From an uncultured Bacilli bacterium (lineage in GTDB: Bacteria; Bacillota_I; Bacilli_A; RF39; UBA660): a stretch of DNA of 39,969 nt. Location: positions 1-39,969 of the forward strand of contig CANRDN010000018.1 in NCBI GenBank assembly GCA_947629375.1, written 5' to 3'. Under the pieces are notes generated by a model. It was not told where the DNA came from, did not search any database, and worked only from the letters and a program-made list of their open reading frames with translations. Below are positions 2,355 through 39,420 of the stretch, one piece after another (positions within the stretch are counted from its first letter, which is position 1; every line of letters starts with the position of its first letter). Made by a program: the position numbers and the translations under genes.

Positions 2355-4505
2355 CTATTTTTTAGAATTTCTTATTAAATCATATACAAGTATATTATTA
2401 GATACTGCTAATATTTTGTCAACCTTTTGGTTATTGTCATCAATCATTTTTTGACTTACAACAAAGTTATTTGGAGTATCCGATGTTTTATCGAATGTAT
2501 AGTTATAATACTCTTCTTTATTGCTATTGTAATATAAGTCTTTTGTTAACCAGTTACCTGTTGGGAAAATTACAATATTATCATCTTTTACATTGAAGAT
2601 ATCGTGACCTAAAGCATACTTGTTATAGAACCCAAACATATTACCAAGAGTTGGCATTACATCGTACATTCCCATTGGATAGCTATAAGTAACAGGTTCC
2701 ATATCAGAATCTTTTGACCAAATGATAAATGGTACTTTTCTATTTAGTTCATATTCATATTCATTGAAATCGATATAAGTTGGGTCATCTTCGTCTTTAA
2801 TATCATCTGTTGTTATATCGTAGTTATAAAGTCTTTCATATTCAGATTGATCAAGTCTTGCGTCGTGGTCACCATAGAAAATTACTACAGTGTTATCAAG
2901 TAATCTTTCTTTTTCTAACTCATCAAAGAATATTCCAAGAGCATAGTCAGCATAATGAGCAGATTTAAAGTAATTTCCAAGTTTTGTACCTTCCATATAA
3001 GGATGACTGATTACTTCTTCTTTACCTGTTTCAGGATTTATAACTGTCTCTTTGATATCGACATCAAATTCACCATATTTTTCTACATCAGAGAATGGTG
3101 TATGGTTACTAAGCATAATAAATGTTCCATAATACTTATCGTGTTCTTCTGTAATTGTTTTTAATTTTTGAACTGCTTGTTTAAAGAATGATACATCAGA
3201 TAGACCTAGTCCAATCTCTTCATCAATTACAAATTCATCTTTGGCATATAAATGGTCATATCCAAGATTTAAATGCATTGTTCTTCTATTCCAAAAGTTT
3301 CCTTTATTTGCATGCATTGCAAAAGAGTAATAACCTTTTTCTTTAAGTAGTTTAGGAATAGATACATATTCTTTATCGGCATAATCGACAAATGCTGTTC
3401 CGATACTTGCAGGCATTAAAGATGTATTTAAAGTAAATTCTGTATCACTACTAGTACCTATATGAACTTGTGAATAGAAGTTATTAAAGTACATTCCTTT
3501 AGCAGCAAGTTTATTTAAGTTAGGTGTTACTTCCTGTCCATTGAACTCTAGTCCAATTAAGAAGTTTTGCATACTCTCGCCGTGGATAACAAGGATATTT
3601 TTTCCTTCGAAGATACCTGTAAACTCGTTAGTTGCAGGTTGTTTAACATCACTATAAAACTCATTGAATTCTTTTAAAGCCGAGTCGTAACCAAAGAGTG
3701 CAGCAAACTTAGGTTCCAAACTTTTTACTAAGTCGTTAACGTGGTAAATATATATTCCATATTTTTCAACAACAGATTCTCTCATCCATAATTTAGTTAA
3801 TCTACTGATATCTGTACCAGTTAGGGTAAATGCAAAAATAATACCAGTTCCAATGGCAATGCATATTGTTCCTATAAAACCATTTCTATTTCTTCTAATT
3901 GTATGTAAGTACTTATAATCTTTTTTCTTATAAACATAATGTAAGAAAAGTAATATTATCGGAGATAAAATATAAATTAAGTCTTTAGGTTCCAAGACAT
4001 TTTCAACAACCGCATCCCCTACATCAGTAATAAACTGCGCAGTAGACAACTGAGATATAGAAGAAAACTCTGAATAGAACGTATAATACGAAGAGTTAAT
4101 AACACATATTGCTGACAATAAAACTGTCACAATAAACATATAAATAAATTTACCTTGTTCTCTAAATAAATGTGTAAAACTTCCAATCAAAAGAACAAAA
4201 GTAAGATCTGCAAGTATAGTATCAAAATCAAAGATAGTATGGCTACCTAGAACGAATGCTCTTAATACTGCTGCATTTAGAACATTTAATATGACAAATA
4301 CGACAAATAACTTATTATTCACAATTATATCTCGTAATCTTCTAAAATATGGTTTGGGATTATGTATAAAATTATTTATCTTACGCTTTAAAGCTTTAAA
4401 TTTTTCTTTAATGATATTATCTTGAGGTACTGAATCCTTTTTATTCTTTTCAGTACTTTTTTTCTTTTTTATTTCGTTGTTTTTATTTTTCTCAACCTTT
4501 TTCAT
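2355..4505 (-). CDS. LtaS-like membrane sulfatase (phosphoglycerol transferase family)
   Basis: The 716-aa protein has a Lys-rich cytoplasmic tail (1-60), about five membrane helices (65-230) and an extracellular sulfatase/alkaline phosphatase-fold domain (about 300-680). The family moves glycerol phosphate from phosphatidylglycerol to lipoteichoic acid or related polymers. Visible metal and substrate sites are HGES (Glu310), HANKGNFWNR (around 398) and YGDHDAR (around 548). The nucleophile region reads GTSSDTEF (350-357); aligned with the S. aureus LtaS stretch GKTSDSEF, the catalytic Thr is a Ser, with a Thr one residue earlier. A second homologue is at 21186-23363. It has its own extended -10 promoter behind the yihY terminator. 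Confidence 0.88.
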   Translation of the reverse strand: MKKVEKNKNNEIKKKKSTEKNKKDSVPQDNIIKEKFKALKRKINNFIHNPKPYFRRLRDIIVNNKLFVVFVILNVLNAAVLRAFVLGSHTIFDFDTILADLTFVLLIGSFTHLFREQGKFIYMFIVTVLLSAICVINSSYYTFYSEFSSISQLSTAQFITDVGDAVVENVLEPKDLIYILSPIILLFLHYVYKKKDYKYLHTIRRNRNGFIGTICIAIGTGIIFAFTLTGTDISRLTKLWMRESVVEKYGIYIYHVNDLVKSLEPKFAALFGYDSALKEFNEFYSDVKQPATNEFTGIFEGKNILVIHGESMQNFLIGLEFNGQEVTPNLNKLAAKGMYFNNFYSQVHIGTSSDTEFTLNTSLMPASIGTAFVDYADKEYVSIPKLLKEKGYYSFAMHANKGNFWNRRTMHLNLGYDHLYAKDEFVIDEEIGLGLSDVSFFKQAVQKLKTITEEHDKYYGTFIMLSNHTPFSDVEKYGEFDVDIKETVINPETGKEEVISHPYMEGTKLGNYFKSAHYADYALGIFFDELEKERLLDNTVVIFYGDHDARLDQSEYERLYNYDITTDDIKDEDDPTYIDFNEYEYELNRKVPFIIWSKDSDMEPVTYSYPMGMYDVMPTLGNMFGFYNKYALGHDIFNVKDDNIVIFPTGNWLTKDLYYNSNKEEYYNYTFDKTSDTPNNFVVSQKMIDDNNQKVDKILAVSNNILVYDLIRNSKK

Positions 4506-32825: not shown

Positions 32826-33938
32826 TTACTTTTTTAGTTTTATTATTTTTTCCCAAGGAAGACTACTATCTCCAAAGTGATGTTTTTTAGTTACATCGTA
32901 GTAATTAAGATGTTTTAAATTCAAAGTTTCAATTATACTTTTTGGAGAAAAATCAAAGTTTTTATCTATTATCTTTTCTATTTCTTCTTCACTTATTTTA
33001 TTGGTGTTAAAGCAGTCGATATCCACCATTACTGGAGAAGACATTCCAATAGCGTATGCTACTCTTACTTCACATAAAGAGGCCAGTCCTGCTGCAACAA
33101 TATTTTTTGCTACATATCTAGCGTAATATGCTGCACTTCTATCCACTTTTGTGTAGTCCTTGCCAGATAGTGCTCCACCACCATTATGAGCAATACCACC
33201 ATAAGAATCGACCATTATTTTTCTACCAGTAAGTCCAGAGTCACCAGCAGGTCCTCCTATTACAAACCTACCTGTTGGATTTATTAATATAGTTGTCTTC
33301 TTCATATACTTTTTAGGTATTACTTCGTCGATAACTTTTTCTTTTATTTCTTTCTTTAAAAGTTCTAAGTCTTTATCTTCATCGTGTTGACAAGATACTA
33401 CAACAGTTTTGACTGTTACTTCATCATCATTTTTAGCAATCGTTACTTGGGCTTTACCATCAGGTCTAATACCTTTTATTATTCCATTTAATCTTACATA
33501 CTCGAGTCTATCAGTTAGTTTATGAGCAAGGTTGTGCACTAGTGGCATAAAGTTTTCTGTTTCATTAGTCGCATACCCATACATTATTCCTTGGTCTCCT
33601 GCTCCCGTATCCTCTTTATCTACTCCTTGAGCAATATCAGGGGATTGCGTTGAAATATCTTTTATTATCTTACAGGTATTTCCATTAAATAAAAGGGAGT
33701 CATCGTTATATCCTACAACATTTATGACATTTCTTACTACTTCATCAATATCAACTTTTGCCCTACTTGTTATTTCACCAATTATGTAGACTTTATTTTT
33801 TCCAAGTGCTACTTCACAGGCAACTTTAGAAGATTCATCTTGCTTTAAATAAGCATCTAATATTGAATCTGCAATTAAATCGCTTAATTTATCTGGGTGA
33901 CCACATGTAACAGATTCTGTTGTAAATAATTTTTCCAT
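32826..33938 (-). CDS. metK: S-adenosylmethionine synthetase
   Basis: MetK forms S-adenosylmethionine from methionine and ATP. The 370-aa protein is slightly shorter than usual (380-400) but has every motif: TSESVTCGHPDKLSD-type start (TTESVTCGHPDKLSD), the GAGDQGIMYGYA signature, FVIGGPAGDSGLTGRKIMVDSYGG and the P-loop-like HNGGGALSGKDYTKVDRSAAY. The ribosome binding site GGAGG lies 7 nt before the ATG. A SAM-I riboswitch with terminator lies in the leader, so transcription should stop when SAM is plentiful. Confidence 0.97.
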   Translation of the reverse strand: MEKLFTTESVTCGHPDKLSDLIADSILDAYLKQDESSKVACEVALGKNKVYIIGEITSRAKVDIDEVVRNVINVVGYNDDSLLFNGNTCKIIKDISTQSPDIAQGVDKEDTGAGDQGIMYGYATNETENFMPLVHNLAHKLTDRLEYVRLNGIIKGIRPDGKAQVTIAKNDDEVTVKTVVVSCQHDEDKDLELLKKEIKEKVIDEVIPKKYMKKTTILINPTGRFVIGGPAGDSGLTGRKIMVDSYGGIAHNGGGALSGKDYTKVDRSAAYYARYVAKNIVAAGLASLCEVRVAYAIGMSSPVMVDIDCFNTNKISEEEIEKIIDKNFDFSPKSIIETLNLKHLNYYDVTKKHHFGDSSLPWEKIIKLKK

Positions 33939-33963: not shown

Positions 33964-34095
33964 AAAAAAACATTTGAAGATAATCTCCAAATGTTAGATT
34001 ATCCTTATCTTTCGGTATTACCGTAGGATTTAGCACCTAAATAAATAGGTTGCTGGACTTCACAGGGCCTATTCCCTCCATCACTCATAATAAGG
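33964..34095 (-). ncRNA. SAM-I (S-box) riboswitch with expression-platform terminator
   Basis: Read on the minus strand, the aptamer spans 34095-34003 with P1 formed by CCTTAT and ATAAGG. Conserved S-box elements are in order: ATGGAGGGA (34071-34079), GGCCC with TGAAG, CCAGCAACC, GGTGCTAAATCC, and GAAAGATAAG closing P1. A terminator follows: AACATTTG pairs with CAAATGTT, extended inward to a 12-bp stem and ending in seven T (33964-33995). GATAATCT next to P1 can compete with the terminator stem as antiterminator. Its promoter -10 is probably TGCTACAAT at 34124-34132. Confidence 0.96.
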
Positions 34096-34157
34096 TAAAT
34101 TTATAAAAATTATTTATACAAGTATTGTAGCACAAAATATAAAAAAGAAAAGTAAAT

Positions 34158-34191
34158 TTAAAAGAAGAAGCTTTTAATACAAAAAGGCTTC
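34158..34191 (-). terminator. Terminator of the DUF262 gene
   Basis: GAAGC (187-191 of the 34-kb block) pairs with GCTTC, with four more A-T pairs beyond a one-base bulge, and TTCTTTT follows on the minus strand. The stop codon of the gene lies in the loop. Confidence 0.65.
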
Positions 34192-36003
34192 TTTTATCTC
34201 TTCAAGTAAATCTTTAGTTCTATTAGTAATTCTTTCCTCATCCCACTTACCACCATTATTATAATAATCAATTATATCAATAGTAGTAATTTTAAAGTCC
34301 GTATATGATTTTATTCCAGGTATATCATCCATTCCATTTATTTTAATATCAAAACTTTTATTTTTTATTTTATTATTAAGTTTATCTTTTAAAATCGTCA
34401 TATTACCTAAATTATTAATTTTAGAATTTCTATAATTAACTTTATCATCATTTGTAATTAATTTTTTTCCTTTGTCATCTTTTTTTGGCAACGTGTTCCA
34501 ATATGTTTGCCATGATTCAGGCATTATATGTTCTAATTGATAACTATCTTTAAATTCCAATTCATGAACATCGTTCATAGGATTACGTCTCCTATAAAGT
34601 TCTATAAGAAATAATAGTGTTTTCGCTTCATCATTAGTCATTTTTTGAAGTCCAACCAATCCTGTGTCCAAATCTTCCATTTTTTCGATTTCTTCATTAA
34701 TTCGATTTGAATCTTTAATAAAATCAGTACATAACTTGTTATAATTTTTACTTCTTGAACTATTTTTGTTTAAATATGTTAATACTACTATTTTTTCAAT
34801 CTTATGCAATTCTTTATTCAATTTTGATTGGTTACTTGAATATTTTTTAATCAAGTATAAGATATATGGATTAAAAGTCTTGATATCCATTTTTTCACAA
34901 AAGAACAACAATCTCGATAATACGTTTTCATTTGAATAAAAATACTTATAATCTTCTTCTTTATCCATAAAAGTTTTTTTATATAATACTGCATATTCGC
35001 ACATTTCGTTTAAAAAGTTTTCTATCTCTTCTTCTGTTTCTAATTCATTTATGTGTTTTTTATAAACATTTGGCAAATCCGAAAGTGTTTGAGTTGGATT
35101 ATACCATTCTTTTATTGTTGCATAGCAATGAAGAAACATATCAATATTTGTTCTTTTCATTCTTCCTGTTACAACTTCTTTATTCCACAACGAATCTATA
35201 TCATCATCAATACAAAAAGTATTTCCCCACGTTGAGTCATATAATTTAATAACTTTTTTGGAAAAATCATCTTTTTTATTTCCATCTAAAATATTACTGA
35301 CACTATTAAATAAATAGTTTTTAATTGTATCTGCCATTGTTAATCTTACTCCTGCATTATTCAATGTATCAAATACTTTTTGCTCGTCAGTATTACAACC
35401 TATACTTATTACTACTAAAATTTTTATAGGGGTTGTTATCAATTTTATTAATAAATCTTTTTTCTTTTCGTAGTTTTCTGTTGAAAATCTATTATAAAAA
35501 TAAGCATAGCATTGGTTTATTAGGCTTTGATTTTCTTTTTCAATTTTATTATGAGAATTAAAATCTATTATCTTATCGAATTCATCTTTATCTAAATGAG
35601 AATGGAACAATCTAGGTACATAAACTGGTCTACCATCTTCACCAGGTTCAATATCTTTTCTAAAGACAACTTTTTTTAAATCATCTTCAAAATATTTTTG
35701 ATCATTTTCTTCCAATGTATCATATAATGCCATTACAAATATCGATAAAGTCGTTAATCTTTGCTGTCCATCTATTACTGAACATTCAGTAGGATCTGTC
35801 ACACTCATTTTTGCTTTGTTTTTTAAAATAATTGAACCTAAAAAGCCTGGTATTTCAGAATCGAAAAAATTATTATATAAATCGCACCAATTTGCTTCTT
35901 TCCAAACATATCTTCTTTGGAAGAAAGGAATCCTTACTATACCTACATCACCCAAAAAAGTTAAATCTTTTGGTTTTGCATCAAACATATCGTTCTCATT
36001 CAT
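34174..36003 (-). CDS. DUF262-DUF1524 protein, GmrSD-like type IV restriction enzyme
   Basis: The 609-aa protein joins an N-terminal DUF262 (ParB/Srx-like NTPase) domain and a C-terminal DUF1524 HNH-type nuclease. DUF262 is marked by IPFFQRRYVW (25-34) and IDGQQRLTT (77-85). DUF1524 is marked by LEHIMPESW (490-498, with the catalytic His492), NNLGNMTIL (about 533-541) and NKIKNKSF. Single-chain GmrSD-type enzymes cut phage DNA carrying modified or glucosylated bases. All key motifs are present, so it should be active. An extended -10 promoter (TATAAT at 36026-36031) lies 22 bp upstream, and a broken HEPN gene lies upstream on the same strand. Confidence 0.92.
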   Translation of the reverse strand: MNENDMFDAKPKDLTFLGDVGIVRIPFFQRRYVWKEANWCDLYNNFFDSEIPGFLGSIILKNKAKMSVTDPTECSVIDGQQRLTTLSIFVMALYDTLEENDQKYFEDDLKKVVFRKDIEPGEDGRPVYVPRLFHSHLDKDEFDKIIDFNSHNKIEKENQSLINQCYAYFYNRFSTENYEKKKDLLIKLITTPIKILVVISIGCNTDEQKVFDTLNNAGVRLTMADTIKNYLFNSVSNILDGNKKDDFSKKVIKLYDSTWGNTFCIDDDIDSLWNKEVVTGRMKRTNIDMFLHCYATIKEWYNPTQTLSDLPNVYKKHINELETEEEIENFLNEMCEYAVLYKKTFMDKEEDYKYFYSNENVLSRLLFFCEKMDIKTFNPYILYLIKKYSSNQSKLNKELHKIEKIVVLTYLNKNSSRSKNYNKLCTDFIKDSNRINEEIEKMEDLDTGLVGLQKMTNDEAKTLLFLIELYRRRNPMNDVHELEFKDSYQLEHIMPESWQTYWNTLPKKDDKGKKLITNDDKVNYRNSKINNLGNMTILKDKLNNKIKNKSFDIKINGMDDIPGIKSYTDFKITTIDIIDYYNNGGKWDEERITNRTKDLLEEIKEAFLY

Positions 36004-36156: not shown

Positions 36157-36663
36157 TTAACTTTCATAATATTTGCATAATTCAATCCACTTTAATAAGA
36201 TTTTTTCCTTTATTTTGAATCTAGCTTTTATTTTACCATTATGCTTATTTTCAAAATAATAGAATTTAATTTTTTTATTTTTTGTTTTTTCTTCTTTAAT
36301 GCAAAATGAACCATGCGCTAATGCACATCTAATTGTGTAATATAATTGCATAGTTTTATTCATATTACTATCATTCTTATAGACGATTATTTCTGTATCT
36401 TTATTTAATTCATTTTCATTCACTAGCAAATTAAAATTATCTTCAAAACTTTCTGTACTTTTAATTGATTTATAAAGTAAACTATTACAACTCTTTTTCA
36501 TCTTCCATAACAATCTTTTAAATTCATTATTTGAAATATTTAAATCAAAAAAGGGTTTTGCTCTCTGAGATACTTTTTCAATAAAGATTTCTCCATTTTT
36601 TTTGTTTTTGTGATATACTTTGCAATTAAATAAATAAAAATCTATTATTTTTAAAAAATTGTA
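36157..36663 (-). pseudogene. HEPN-domain gene fragment without a start codon
   Basis: An open frame of 168 codons runs from just after an in-frame TGA (36664-36666) to the stop at 36157. It has no ATG until residue about 54, yet protein-like sequence extends well before that (KVYHKNKKNGEIFIEKVSQR, then AKPFFDLNISNNEFKRLLWK). It ends with a HEPN-like region holding IRCALAHGSF, an Rx4H motif typical of HEPN ribonucleases. HEPN proteins are often coded next to DUF262 proteins in defence loci. The N-terminus seems lost by deletion or frameshift; a TTG at 36513 could give a 118-aa remnant. Expression is uncertain. Confidence 0.65.
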
Positions 36664-36783: not shown

Positions 36784-37230
36784 ATGGAAAATATATTATA
36801 CTATGAACTTGCAACTGAATATGGACCACTATATGTCTATGAAAGATATAATGATGATCCAAAGACATCAAAAGAAATACCAGAAACAAGAGAATTTTTT
36901 ACACAGGAAGAGGCTAGAGTTTCATACAGCTCTCTAGTATTTTTAGAAAAAGCCGAATTTAAAGTTGTTGAAAGAAATATGGAAGGAATAATAACAAAAA
37001 ATTATATGCACAAATTATCTCCATATGAATTTTTAAACAGAGTTGGCTCTTCTCTTGATAGTGATGAAAAAATGGAGGAGAAAAGAAAAAGAATATATGA
37101 TATTTTTGAAATGAAATCTAACAATATGGCAAATGATCAAGTAATAGAAACAGAACAGAAAGGAAACAAAAAGCAAAAGAATATTGTTGCTTCAAAAATA
37201 TTATCAAAATACATACCTAGCAAAAATTAG
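36784..37230 (+). CDS. Uncharacterised 148-aa protein, paralog B
   Basis: This is the second member of the family seen at 25330-25782. Shared blocks are EYGPLYVYERY (12-22), TREFFTQEE, ERNMEGIITKNY, LSPYEFLNRVG, EEKRKRIYDIFEMKSNN and ASKILSKYIPS at the end; the part before the last block differs. It is soluble and charged, without membrane helices. No known family is recognised. It lies between a broken HEPN gene and the leader RNA of the phosphoesterase operon. The ribosome binding site AGAGGTGAA is like that of paralog A. Two retained copies with the same promoter layout suggest a real, regulated function. Confidence 0.85.
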   Translation: MENILYYELATEYGPLYVYERYNDDPKTSKEIPETREFFTQEEARVSYSSLVFLEKAEFKVVERNMEGIITKNYMHKLSPYEFLNRVGSSLDSDEKMEEKRKRIYDIFEMKSNNMANDQVIETEQKGNKKQKNIVASKILSKYIPSKN

Positions 37231-37493: not shown

Positions 37494-37522
37494 TTGTAAA
37501 TTTCTTATTAATTTGATACAAT
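37494..37522 (+). promoter_or_regulatory. Promoter of the leader RNA/phosphoesterase operon
   Basis: TTGTAA (37494-37499), 17 bp, TACAAT (37517-37522). Transcription should start near 37529, about 175 nt before the first gene, leaving room for a structured leader. Confidence 0.65.
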
Positions 37523-37528
37523 ACATCT

Positions 37529-37649
37529 ATCAATTGACTTGCCGAGTATTGATGACAATTTAGACGCTAAAGTTTATTTATTTAGGCAAGAAATAAATAT
37601 GCATGATGCGGGATATCCCTTAAATAGGACGAAGGGATATCCTTTTTTT
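37529..37649 (+). ncRNA. Structured leader RNA ending in a strong terminator
   Basis: About 120 nt lie between the promoter and a perfect 11-bp terminator hairpin (GGATATCCCTT at 37611-37621 with AAGGGATATCC at 37632-37642, then seven T). Upstream of it CTTGCC (37538-37543) pairs with GGCAAG (37585-37590) and encloses two small hairpins: ATTG/CAAT and TTTAG/CTAAA (37559-37563 with 37567-37571). This is a three-way-junction-like layout. It does not match any riboswitch consensus I know (SAM, TPP, FMN, purine, c-di-GMP, PreQ1, guanidine, T-box were considered). It could be an attenuator for the operon 55 nt downstream or a free small RNA. Confidence 0.6.
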
Positions 37650-37703
37650 GTTTATTTATAATAATTGATAATAATAATAATAATAATAAAAGGAGGCAAA
37701 GTA

Positions 37704-38228
37704 ATGAAAAAACTAGCAACATATTATGTAGATGGTAAGATAAAATATAATAAAAAAAATGGGTTATATTATTATCAAGATAACGATAAATATTTATTTG
37801 CACAAGGTATTTACAAGACAAAAATAAAAGAAGAAGACTTACCAGATTATTATATAAAAGTATGGCTACATCCAAAATACATATATTTATCTTTAAAAGG
37901 AATTAAAGATGTATCCTATAGACCAAATTTTCATAATAACCATTATAGAAAATATGACGCTCTATACATATCGTATAATAATAAATTAATTATTAACCAA
38001 GATGGGTATTGTAATAATTACGATATAATGATTTGGGGTCCAGAAATAAATCATATTGTAAAAGAATTAGAAAAATGCAAGTATAAACCAGCTAAAATGA
38101 GGAAGATAAAAAATTTAATGGATAAAAAAAATAAATGGTATAAGTATTGGGATGACCGCAACTGGAATGGTAATTATTTTTTTACATCAGAAGAAGTATG
38201 GAATGAAATTCTTGGTGATGAAAAATGA
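37704..38228 (+). CDS. Unknown protein, first gene of the twin phosphoesterase operon
   Basis: The 174-aa protein is very rich in Tyr, Asn, Lys and Trp, with no membrane helix and no known motif. The first 110 residues look beta-rich (LATYYVDGKIKYN, YLFAQGIYKTKI, KYIYLSLKGIKDVSYR, KLIINQDGY), and the rest is helical and basic, ending in FTSEEVWNEIL. The start at 37704 follows AAAGGAGG at 7 nt; an in-frame ATG at 37665 lies in a (TAA)n tract without a ribosome binding site. Its stop overlaps the next start by 4 bp (ATGA), so it is coupled to the phosphoesterases. Confidence 0.85.
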   Translation: MKKLATYYVDGKIKYNKKNGLYYYQDNDKYLFAQGIYKTKIKEEDLPDYYIKVWLHPKYIYLSLKGIKDVSYRPNFHNNHYRKYDALYISYNNKLIINQDGYCNNYDIMIWGPEINHIVKELEKCKYKPAKMRKIKNLMDKKNKWYKYWDDRNWNGNYFFTSEEVWNEILGDEK

Positions 38229-38752
38229 AAATATATATGATAGCAGATACACATTTTAGTCATAAAAATATAATTGACTATTGTAATAGACCTTTTAATA
38301 ATGTAGATGAAATGAACCAAACCATTATTAATAATTGGAATAAGATCGTTAAAAAGAATGATGTTGTGTATCACTTGGGGGATTTTTTTCTAGGTTCAAA
38401 ATATGATTTGGAAGATATAGTTAATCAATTAAATGGAAAAATCTATTTAATAAGAGGGAATCATGATCGATTAACAGCTAAATCATATGAAGACTGTGGA
38501 ATAACTTTATTAAAAAGTGCTCCAATTATTATGGACAATTATAAGGTAATGTTATCTCATAGACCATTACCAAATACTATGATAAAAGATGGATATGTGA
38601 ATATACACGGTCACATCCATCAAAACAAATTAGAAGATAATTATGATGTAACTTTATTTGATATAAATAAACATATTAATGTTTCATGTGATATGTTGAA
38701 TTTTAAACCTATATTACTAGAAGATTTATTAAAGGATTGTGATAAAAAATGA
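38225..38752 (+). CDS. Metallophosphoesterase 1, calcineurin-like
   Basis: The 175-aa protein has the full set of metallophosphoesterase motifs: ADTHFSH (Asp8, His10), LGD (51-53), RGNHD (77-81), LSHRP (His112) and HGHIH (128-132), binding two metals. It is a small single-domain member like those often found in phages and mobile elements. No substrate can be named; cyclic nucleotides, nucleotide 2',3'-phosphates or RNA ends are options for this family. It overlaps both neighbours by 4 bp, so the three proteins should be made in similar amounts. Confidence 0.92.
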   Translation: MKIYMIADTHFSHKNIIDYCNRPFNNVDEMNQTIINNWNKIVKKNDVVYHLGDFFLGSKYDLEDIVNQLNGKIYLIRGNHDRLTAKSYEDCGITLLKSAPIIMDNYKVMLSHRPLPNTMIKDGYVNIHGHIHQNKLEDNYDVTLFDINKHINVSCDMLNFKPILLEDLLKDCDKK

Positions 38753-39420
38753 TTTATATAACAGGAGATATGCATAGAGATTTTTCTAGGTTAGATAATA
38801 TGAAGTTTAATAAAGAGGACATATTAATAATACTAGGAGATACAGGGATAAATTATTATCTTAATGAAGAAGACAACAAATTAAAAGAAGATTTAAAAAA
38901 ATATAATATTAAAATATTTTGTATTAGAGGGAATCACGAAGAAAGGCCAGAAAATATAAATACCTACAAAGAAGTAAATATGTTTGGGGGAAAAGTATTT
39001 GTAGAAAAAGAATATCCATATTTGTTATTTGCAAAAGATGGAGAAGAATATAGTATAGGTGGAAAACAAGTATTAATAATTGGTGGTGCATATTCTATAG
39101 ATAAAAACCACAGAATAATATATGGATATAAATGGTTTAAGGATGAACAGCTAAGTAAAGAAGAAATGGATAATATTTACAATAAAGTAAAAGGAAAGCA
39201 TTATGATATTGTATTAACACATACATGTCCACATAAATATGAGCCAACAGAAGTATTTTTAGATGTGGTAAATCAATCTAAAGTAGATAAATCTATGGAA
39301 TATTTTCTTGATAAAATAGAAAAAAACATAAAATATGATAAATGGTATTGTGGACATTATCATACTGAAAAAAAAGTTAATAAATTAGAATTTTTATTTG
39401 AAAGTTTAAAGAAAATATAA
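38749..39420 (+). CDS. Metallophosphoesterase 2, calcineurin-like
   Basis: The 223-aa protein is a second, distinct phosphoesterase: GDMH (Asp7, His9), LGD (29-31), RGNHEE (60-65), LTHTCPH (about 166-172) and CGHYH (about 202-206). The Asp that usually follows GNH is Glu. Sequence outside the motifs differs from the upstream enzyme, so this is not a recent tandem duplication. The start overlaps the upstream stop (ATGA). A weak hairpin (TTTACT with AGTAAA, 39422-39439) follows the stop. The two enzymes may act on successive phosphates or hetero-oligomerise. Confidence 0.92.
   Translation: MIYITGDMHRDFSRLDNMKFNKEDILIILGDTGINYYLNEEDNKLKEDLKKYNIKIFCIRGNHEERPENINTYKEVNMFGGKVFVEKEYPYLLFAKDGEEYSIGGKQVLIIGGAYSIDKNHRIIYGYKWFKDEQLSKEEMDNIYNKVKGKHYDIVLTHTCPHKYEPTEVFLDVVNQSKVDKSMEYFLDKIEKNIKYDKWYCGHYHTEKKVNKLEFLFESLKKI

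Follow-up and report, generated by a model that had tools for sequence, protein, structure and literature searches.

Do the structured leader RNA and the three overlapping genes near one end of this contig constitute one dedicated system, or does the locus join two units that are also found apart? The question is raised by the window, that is, the whole stretch of 39,969 nucleotides analysed here, a complete contig (C18) from an assembly of 72. The first-pass annotation proposed a single system of leader and operon. The RNA and the gene set both proved to be real, but the RNA precedes many unrelated genes elsewhere, and the closest pair of the first and third genes found in another genome (L186) has neither the leader nor the second gene. 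Judging from the sequence comparisons described below, we consider it moderately probable that the locus is a composite of two units, each conserved without the other: a terminator-gated leader and a conflict-type gene module.

The three genes lie on the forward strand (Table 1), and both junctions are 4-base ATGA overlaps, in agreement with the initial reading. No significant family was found in Pfam, PHROGs, NCBIfam or PADLOC for the first product, P1, which bears out its description as a protein without known family. The two others, MPE2 and MPE3, were described as metallophosphoesterases with intact metal sites, and this is confirmed by family matches (Metallophos_2, 6e-12, and phrog_547, 2e-50, for MPE2; Metallophos, 3e-13, and phrog_1649, 2e-29, for MPE3), by scores of 42.8 and 51.2 bits, respectively, for the Metallophos superfamily (PF00149, cut-off 21.5), and by complete metal motifs, namely D8/H10, GD52-53, GNHD78-81, H112 and GHIH129-132 in MPE2, and D7/H9, GD30-31, GNHE61-64, H158 and GHYH202-205 in MPE3. 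By sequence, both belong to the calcineurin-like phosphoesterases, as represented by phrog_547 (PDB 1xm7) and phrog_1649. The model of MPE3 (pLDDT 86.5) bears only a loose resemblance to Mre11, LpxH and PptH, which gives no substrate and does not decide whether the enzyme would process RNA ends or cleave a signalling nucleotide, as initially suggested. Against the known defence proteins in PADLOC, none of the three proteins has a convincing match, MPE2 showing a weak partial match to PDC-S10 (E 6e-4).

Twelve residues of P1 are invariant among its relatives (L31, T39, K40, D45, L46, P47, Y50, P74, N79, H80, Y91 and Y127). Structure prediction, which had been suggested for this protein, yielded a fair AlphaFold model (pLDDT 84.3) that combines a body rich in beta structure with helices at the C-terminus, but no solved fold stands out: neither PDB nor BFVD contains a convincing match, Foldseek returned nothing at E <= 0.001, and the best VIA-align match, to the LytTR-like fold of 3d6w, reaches a Z of 5.2 with an rmsd of 3.2 over 85 residues.

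Among the neighbours named by the first-pass annotation, the GmrSD restriction enzyme (2e-29) and the IS110 element (5e-17) were recovered, the contig end falling inside the IS110 transposase gene, but the 'HEPN remnant' at 36157-36513 has no Pfam match. The GmrSD-type enzyme (DUF262/DUF1524; 34174-36003, reverse strand) has intact domains and matches HEC-06 as well as other defence models in PADLOC. Between it and the leader, a 148-aa protein is encoded at 36784-37230 on the forward strand, with sub-threshold matches only (SMODS-associated NUDIX, 2TM effector). An ordinary feature is the SAM riboswitch (74 bits; 34002-34096, reverse strand) that precedes the S-adenosylmethionine synthetase gene at 32826-33938.

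Table 1. Elements of the leader and operon in the window, and loci at which P1 relatives were found with or without MPE3.
Feature	Position or locus	Strand	Evidence or remark
Promoter: TTGTAA (37494-37499), 17 nt, TACAAT (37517-37522)	37494..37522	+	Scan; -10 conserved in relatives; conserved upstream columns
Structured leader RNA core	37528..37611	+	Covariance model R1, fold z-score
Hairpin 1 (UAUCAAU/AUUGAUG), loop CUUGCC at 37538-37543	37528..37554	+	Covariation
Hairpin 2, loop GGCAAG at 37585-37590, kissing the loop of hairpin 1	37572..37602	+	Covariation
Intrinsic terminator, 12-bp stem followed by T tract	37610..37650	+	Predicted; found across the examined leaders
Ribosome-binding site AAGGAGG, before P1	37690..37696	+	Sequence
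P1, 174 aa, family previously unnamed	37704..38228	+	Relatives in 12 distinct loci
MPE2, 175-aa metallophosphoesterase (phrog_547; PDB relative 1xm7, aq_1665)	38225..38752	+	Pfam/PHROGs matches
MPE3, 223-aa metallophosphoesterase (phrog_1649)	38749..39420	+	Pfam/PHROGs matches
P1 with MPE3	Window		Order P1-MPE2-MPE3, leader in front
P1 with MPE3	L186, another genome of the family		Identity 62% for P1 and 70% for MPE3; MPE2 and leader absent
P1 with MPE3	L033, viral contig		Order MPE2-MPE3-P1
P1 with MPE3	L034, 144-kb viral contig		Convergent neighbours
P1 with MPE3	L003/L030, Oscillospirales phage and prophages		Two genes between; counted as one locus together with near-identical viral and prophage copies
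P1 with MPE3	G177, G180, G350		Fused into one protein, three genomes
P1 without MPE3	L032		
P1 without MPE3	L046/L047		Near NrdD/NrdG-like and dUTPase-like genes (named by eye)
Broken P1, without MPE3	L029, G577		

The core of the leader is a single, non-repeated unit of about 84 nt, whose predicted fold (-31.4 kcal/mol, z = -3.6) was equalled by none of 200 shuffles. The promoter had also been noted initially; the site is present in our scan, but the count alone is close to chance, with 37 promoter-like sites found versus 32 expected. We rate the site above chance because the position of the -10 box is conserved across 50 leaders: it scores at least 4/6 in 49 of the 50 and lies mostly 5-12 nt before the RNA, the distance being exactly 7 nt in 34 of them and 5 nt in the window. 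A predicted terminator follows in all 50 leaders examined, with a mean of -16.5 kcal/mol compared with -4.1 for shuffles. With promoter, covarying structured RNA, terminator and same-strand gene all in place, the element can be classed as a terminator-coupled leader.

How widely does this leader occur? A DNA search of 59 related genomes detected seven further copies of substantial length, 73-84% identical, in six other genomes, and a covariance model, R1, was built from eight sequences. The leader of the window, which is one of R1's own sequences, scores 96.6 bits. In a sample of 253 genomes from the bacterial family of the window, R1 has 58 matches in 39 genomes (window included), and among 247 genomes sampled at the class level it has matches in five, every one from the same family, so that none was found outside the family among the sampled genomes; the genomes were an even draw from larger groups, so that the counts hold for the samples, and weak matches are lost under the stricter filters of the class scan. 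Searches of phages, plasmids and viral contigs with exact patterns and blastn detected no leader.

The proposed structure is borne out by covariation. Across 59 distinct sequences, 91.6% of the cells are paired versus 79.0% in shuffles, two-sided changes occur in 154 cells versus 39 expected, affecting 18 of the 23 pairs, and the covariation score is 0.373, whereas shuffles reach 0.167 and controls with slid partners no more than 0.077. The signal is lost once the partners are slid by one to three columns. Two-sided changes are seen in 5 of 6 pairs of hairpin 1 and in 10 of 11 pairs of hairpin 2, counts that are biased towards structure because both hairpins belong to the model that made the alignment. 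The kissing pairs are outside that model, and here 96.8% of the cells are paired, with two-sided changes in three of the six pairs and compensated forms including UUUGCC/GGCAAA, CUUACC/GGUAAG and CUUGUC/GACAAG. From the same alignment, RNAalifold recovered hairpin 1 together with the inner portion of hairpin 2. At the level of sequence prediction, the structured leader reported at first reading is real.

The genes behind the leader are diverse. For the earliest seven copies, the clear downstream genes were RhuM-Fic, ORF6N and a DUF1016 nuclease. In 46 of 51 cases a same-strand ORF starts no more than 260 nt behind the leader, and among 53 downstream proteins Pfam identified ORF6N in 21, RhuM in 10, Fic in eight, KilA-N in five, DUF1016 in four, Bro-N in three, and ToxN and PBECR3 in one each, where the categories overlap since one protein can carry two. 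The main genes behind the leader are, then, the mobile regulator genes of the KilA-N, Bro-N, ORF6N and RhuM type. ORF6N and RhuM each occur with all four leader subtypes, and DUF1016 and KilA-N each with three, and such free mixing is as expected if different genes reuse the leader. Eleven downstream genes are broken according to our own grouping, which indicates that these genes turn over. P1-MPE stands behind only one leader in the sample, that of the window, and no leader was found before P1 or MPE relatives at other loci. Comparative analysis establishes that a conserved putative promoter, a predicted two-hairpin kissing-loop RNA and a terminator form a family-wide unit standing before unrelated accessory genes. 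Two further observations concern this cargo. In one genome, two tandem leader-ORF6N units (L095, 4649-6745) suggest duplication of a whole leader-gene cassette, and at L162, L172 and L173 subtype B leaders are followed by a 250-273 aa family without Pfam match ('MNYGYxNExDFVxLFNxKYF').

No Rfam 15 family reached the gathering threshold for the leader of the window or for ten other leader-bearing loci. In the literature searched, no RNA leader was found for ORF6N, RhuM, KilA-N or Bro-N genes, and the main text of two structured-RNA surveys (PMC8040213, PMC2864571) does not contain these genes. We regard the leader RNA as new, provisionally, because paper supplements and most subscription journals were outside the search.

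Then, how could one RNA serve so many genes? The shared leader probably acts as a cis attenuator. A classical two-state switch is unsupported, because the terminator arms pair no better with their own leader (-6.5) than with swapped partners from other loci (-6.8, p = 0.16), a comparison that addresses a locus-matched antiterminator only and not other modes of control. Since no locus-specific antiterminator was found, the RNA domain, a bound factor or the polymerase itself would have to bring about the gating. EAR and put antitermination RNAs are structured RNAs at the transcript start with terminators beyond, and the present leader is similar: its fixed extreme 5' position, its two hairpins, the terminator directly after them and the lack of a locus-matched antiterminator would all suit a processive antitermination signal acting on RNA polymerase. 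However, it is matched by no Rfam model and precedes short accessory cassettes instead of long operons, and there would be no reason to keep a terminator in all copies if the RNA overrode it every time, so we consider this mode rather unlikely. A small-molecule riboswitch is less probable again. Riboswitches typically have features seen here, namely kissing loops, a conserved linker (GACAAUUUAGACGAUAA) and a terminator, and purine-type riboswitches, like other terminator-coupled leaders, share the loop-loop contact between two hairpins ahead of an intrinsic terminator; yet the leader has no Rfam match and no outer closing stem at its 5' end, a search for alternative pairing with the terminator found none, and the downstream genes are accessory and mobile, none of them metabolic. 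The order of promoter, structured RNA, terminator and gene is also that of type III toxin-antitoxin systems (ToxIN, CptIN, TenpIN), some of the proteins encoded behind the leader resemble toxins or nucleases (ToxN, PBECR3, Fic, DUF1016), and one leader copy precedes a ToxN gene. The RNA could accordingly act in trans or bind a protein of its own locus in the manner of an antitoxin, with the terminator setting the RNA-to-protein ratio, but this is quite improbable. Type III systems use tandem pseudoknot repeats, whereas the leader is a single two-hairpin kissing-loop RNA, no tandem repeats being present in that of the window; its loops are nearly constant although the downstream families are unrelated; and Pfam finds no ToxN match for P1, MPE2 or MPE3. 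The sole ToxN locus, L150 (4445-4710, reverse strand), bears on the same point. Read by eye, three ToxI-like tandem repeats and a terminator of their own are followed there by a second promoter, the leader RNA, its terminator and toxN, so that a regulatory insertion splits this type III toxin-antitoxin locus. The usual repeats and their terminator are retained upstream, which argues that the leader is an added expression unit there, and its candidacy as the ToxN antitoxin was rejected.

The second unit of the composite has a different distribution. In eight of the 12 distinct P1 loci, MPE3 is located within about 3 kb of P1 or fused to it, and chance is an implausible origin of this repeated adjacency because MPE3 relatives are uncommon in the class (25 of 296 genomes). 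P1 is conserved with phosphoesterases elsewhere (L186, L033, L034 and the fusions), and the doubt raised by the first-pass annotation, that the genes might be conserved together nowhere else, is thereby removed. As for the three-gene order, all three genes are found in the viral contig L033, in a different order, and P1-MPE3 without MPE2 in L186. The majority of P1 loci have no MPE2, which is, on the gene content compared here, optional. It should be noted that viral contigs scanned with the single P1, MPE2 and MPE3 proteins gave no matches, and the relatives there were found only with an alignment as query; no P1 relative was found in plasmids. To our knowledge, neither the linkage of such phosphoesterases to P1 nor an MPE3-P1 fusion has been described. 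From these comparisons, P1-MPE3, sometimes with MPE2, emerges as a conserved module found in phages and mobile elements as well as in accessory parts of genomes.

Two readings of the operon have to be weighed against the composite. That leader, P1, MPE2 and MPE3 together form one dedicated system would accord with the contiguity of the four parts and the translational coupling of the genes in the window, but every other leader copy examined lacks P1-MPE, P1-MPE3 occurs without the leader, and most P1 loci lack MPE2, which makes such a system very improbable. Less easily dismissed, though still doubtful, is the idea that P1-MPE is a captured remnant of phage nucleotide or DNA metabolism with no role in conflict: relatives of P1-MPE occur in phages, and P1 alone is found near the nucleotide-metabolism-like genes of L046 and L047. 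Against this stands the fact that P1 is repeatedly linked or fused to MPE3 in accessory regions, where an AAA (AbiEii-like) gene or DUF1016 nucleases lie nearby. Counting against the composite itself, four P1 loci lack MPE3, and MPE3 relatives of about 30% identity occur in ordinary chromosomal surroundings.

In the composite that we favour, the leader RNA begins at the predicted transcription start and ends at the putative intrinsic terminator, directly before an accessory gene. Most transcripts would end at the terminator and leave a short RNA, until a trans factor or a condition alters the kissing-loop domain or the polymerase, so that readthrough allows P1, MPE2 and MPE3 to be made. P1 may then serve MPE3 as a binding or targeting partner, and MPE3 could hydrolyse a phosphodiester or phosphomonoester of a nucleic acid or nucleotide in a conflict among mobile element, phage and host, with MPE2 as a presumed auxiliary phosphoesterase.

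A leader RNA normally belongs to a single pathway, but here one RNA is common to otherwise unrelated accessory genes, often toxin- or phage-related, whose accessory character is the sole thing they share. Tentatively, and with low confidence, one may imagine a reusable RNA switch, not described before, that responds to a shared event, for example phage infection or transcription stress, and releases the terminator to activate dispersed accessory genes as an RNA-based alarm regulon; if so, its members would be unrelated toxin, nuclease, phage-regulator-like and phosphoesterase genes. If the leader does respond to a signal, that signal would reveal the role of the ORF6N, RhuM, KilA-N and DUF1016 genes, which are common in bacterial genomes and poorly understood. 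The P1-MPE3 module with its natural fusions, for its part, provides a defined protein pair for testing a phage-related enzyme activity.

DUF1016 genes are present in both settings. They adjoin MPE3-type operons in G095, G113, G136, G177, G180 and G350 (assigned by a Pfam scan for the G177 gene and by sequence resemblance for the other five), and in G095 MPE2 and MPE3 flank another unknown gene behind the DUF1016 gene. Their occurrence beside MPE3 operons and, elsewhere, behind the leader is suggestive of a shared functional sphere, as far as gene neighbourhoods can tell. In L186, an AAA/AbiEii-like ATPase of OLD-like appearance is encoded at 2411-4069 on the forward strand, some 1.2 kb ahead of the P1-MPE3 pair. 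In addition, operons in which a DUF1016 nuclease and an MPE3-type phosphoesterase are joined by a third, variable protein recur in other families of the class (L069, 6172-7996; L064, L065, L060, L067 and L038), with MPE2 present once.
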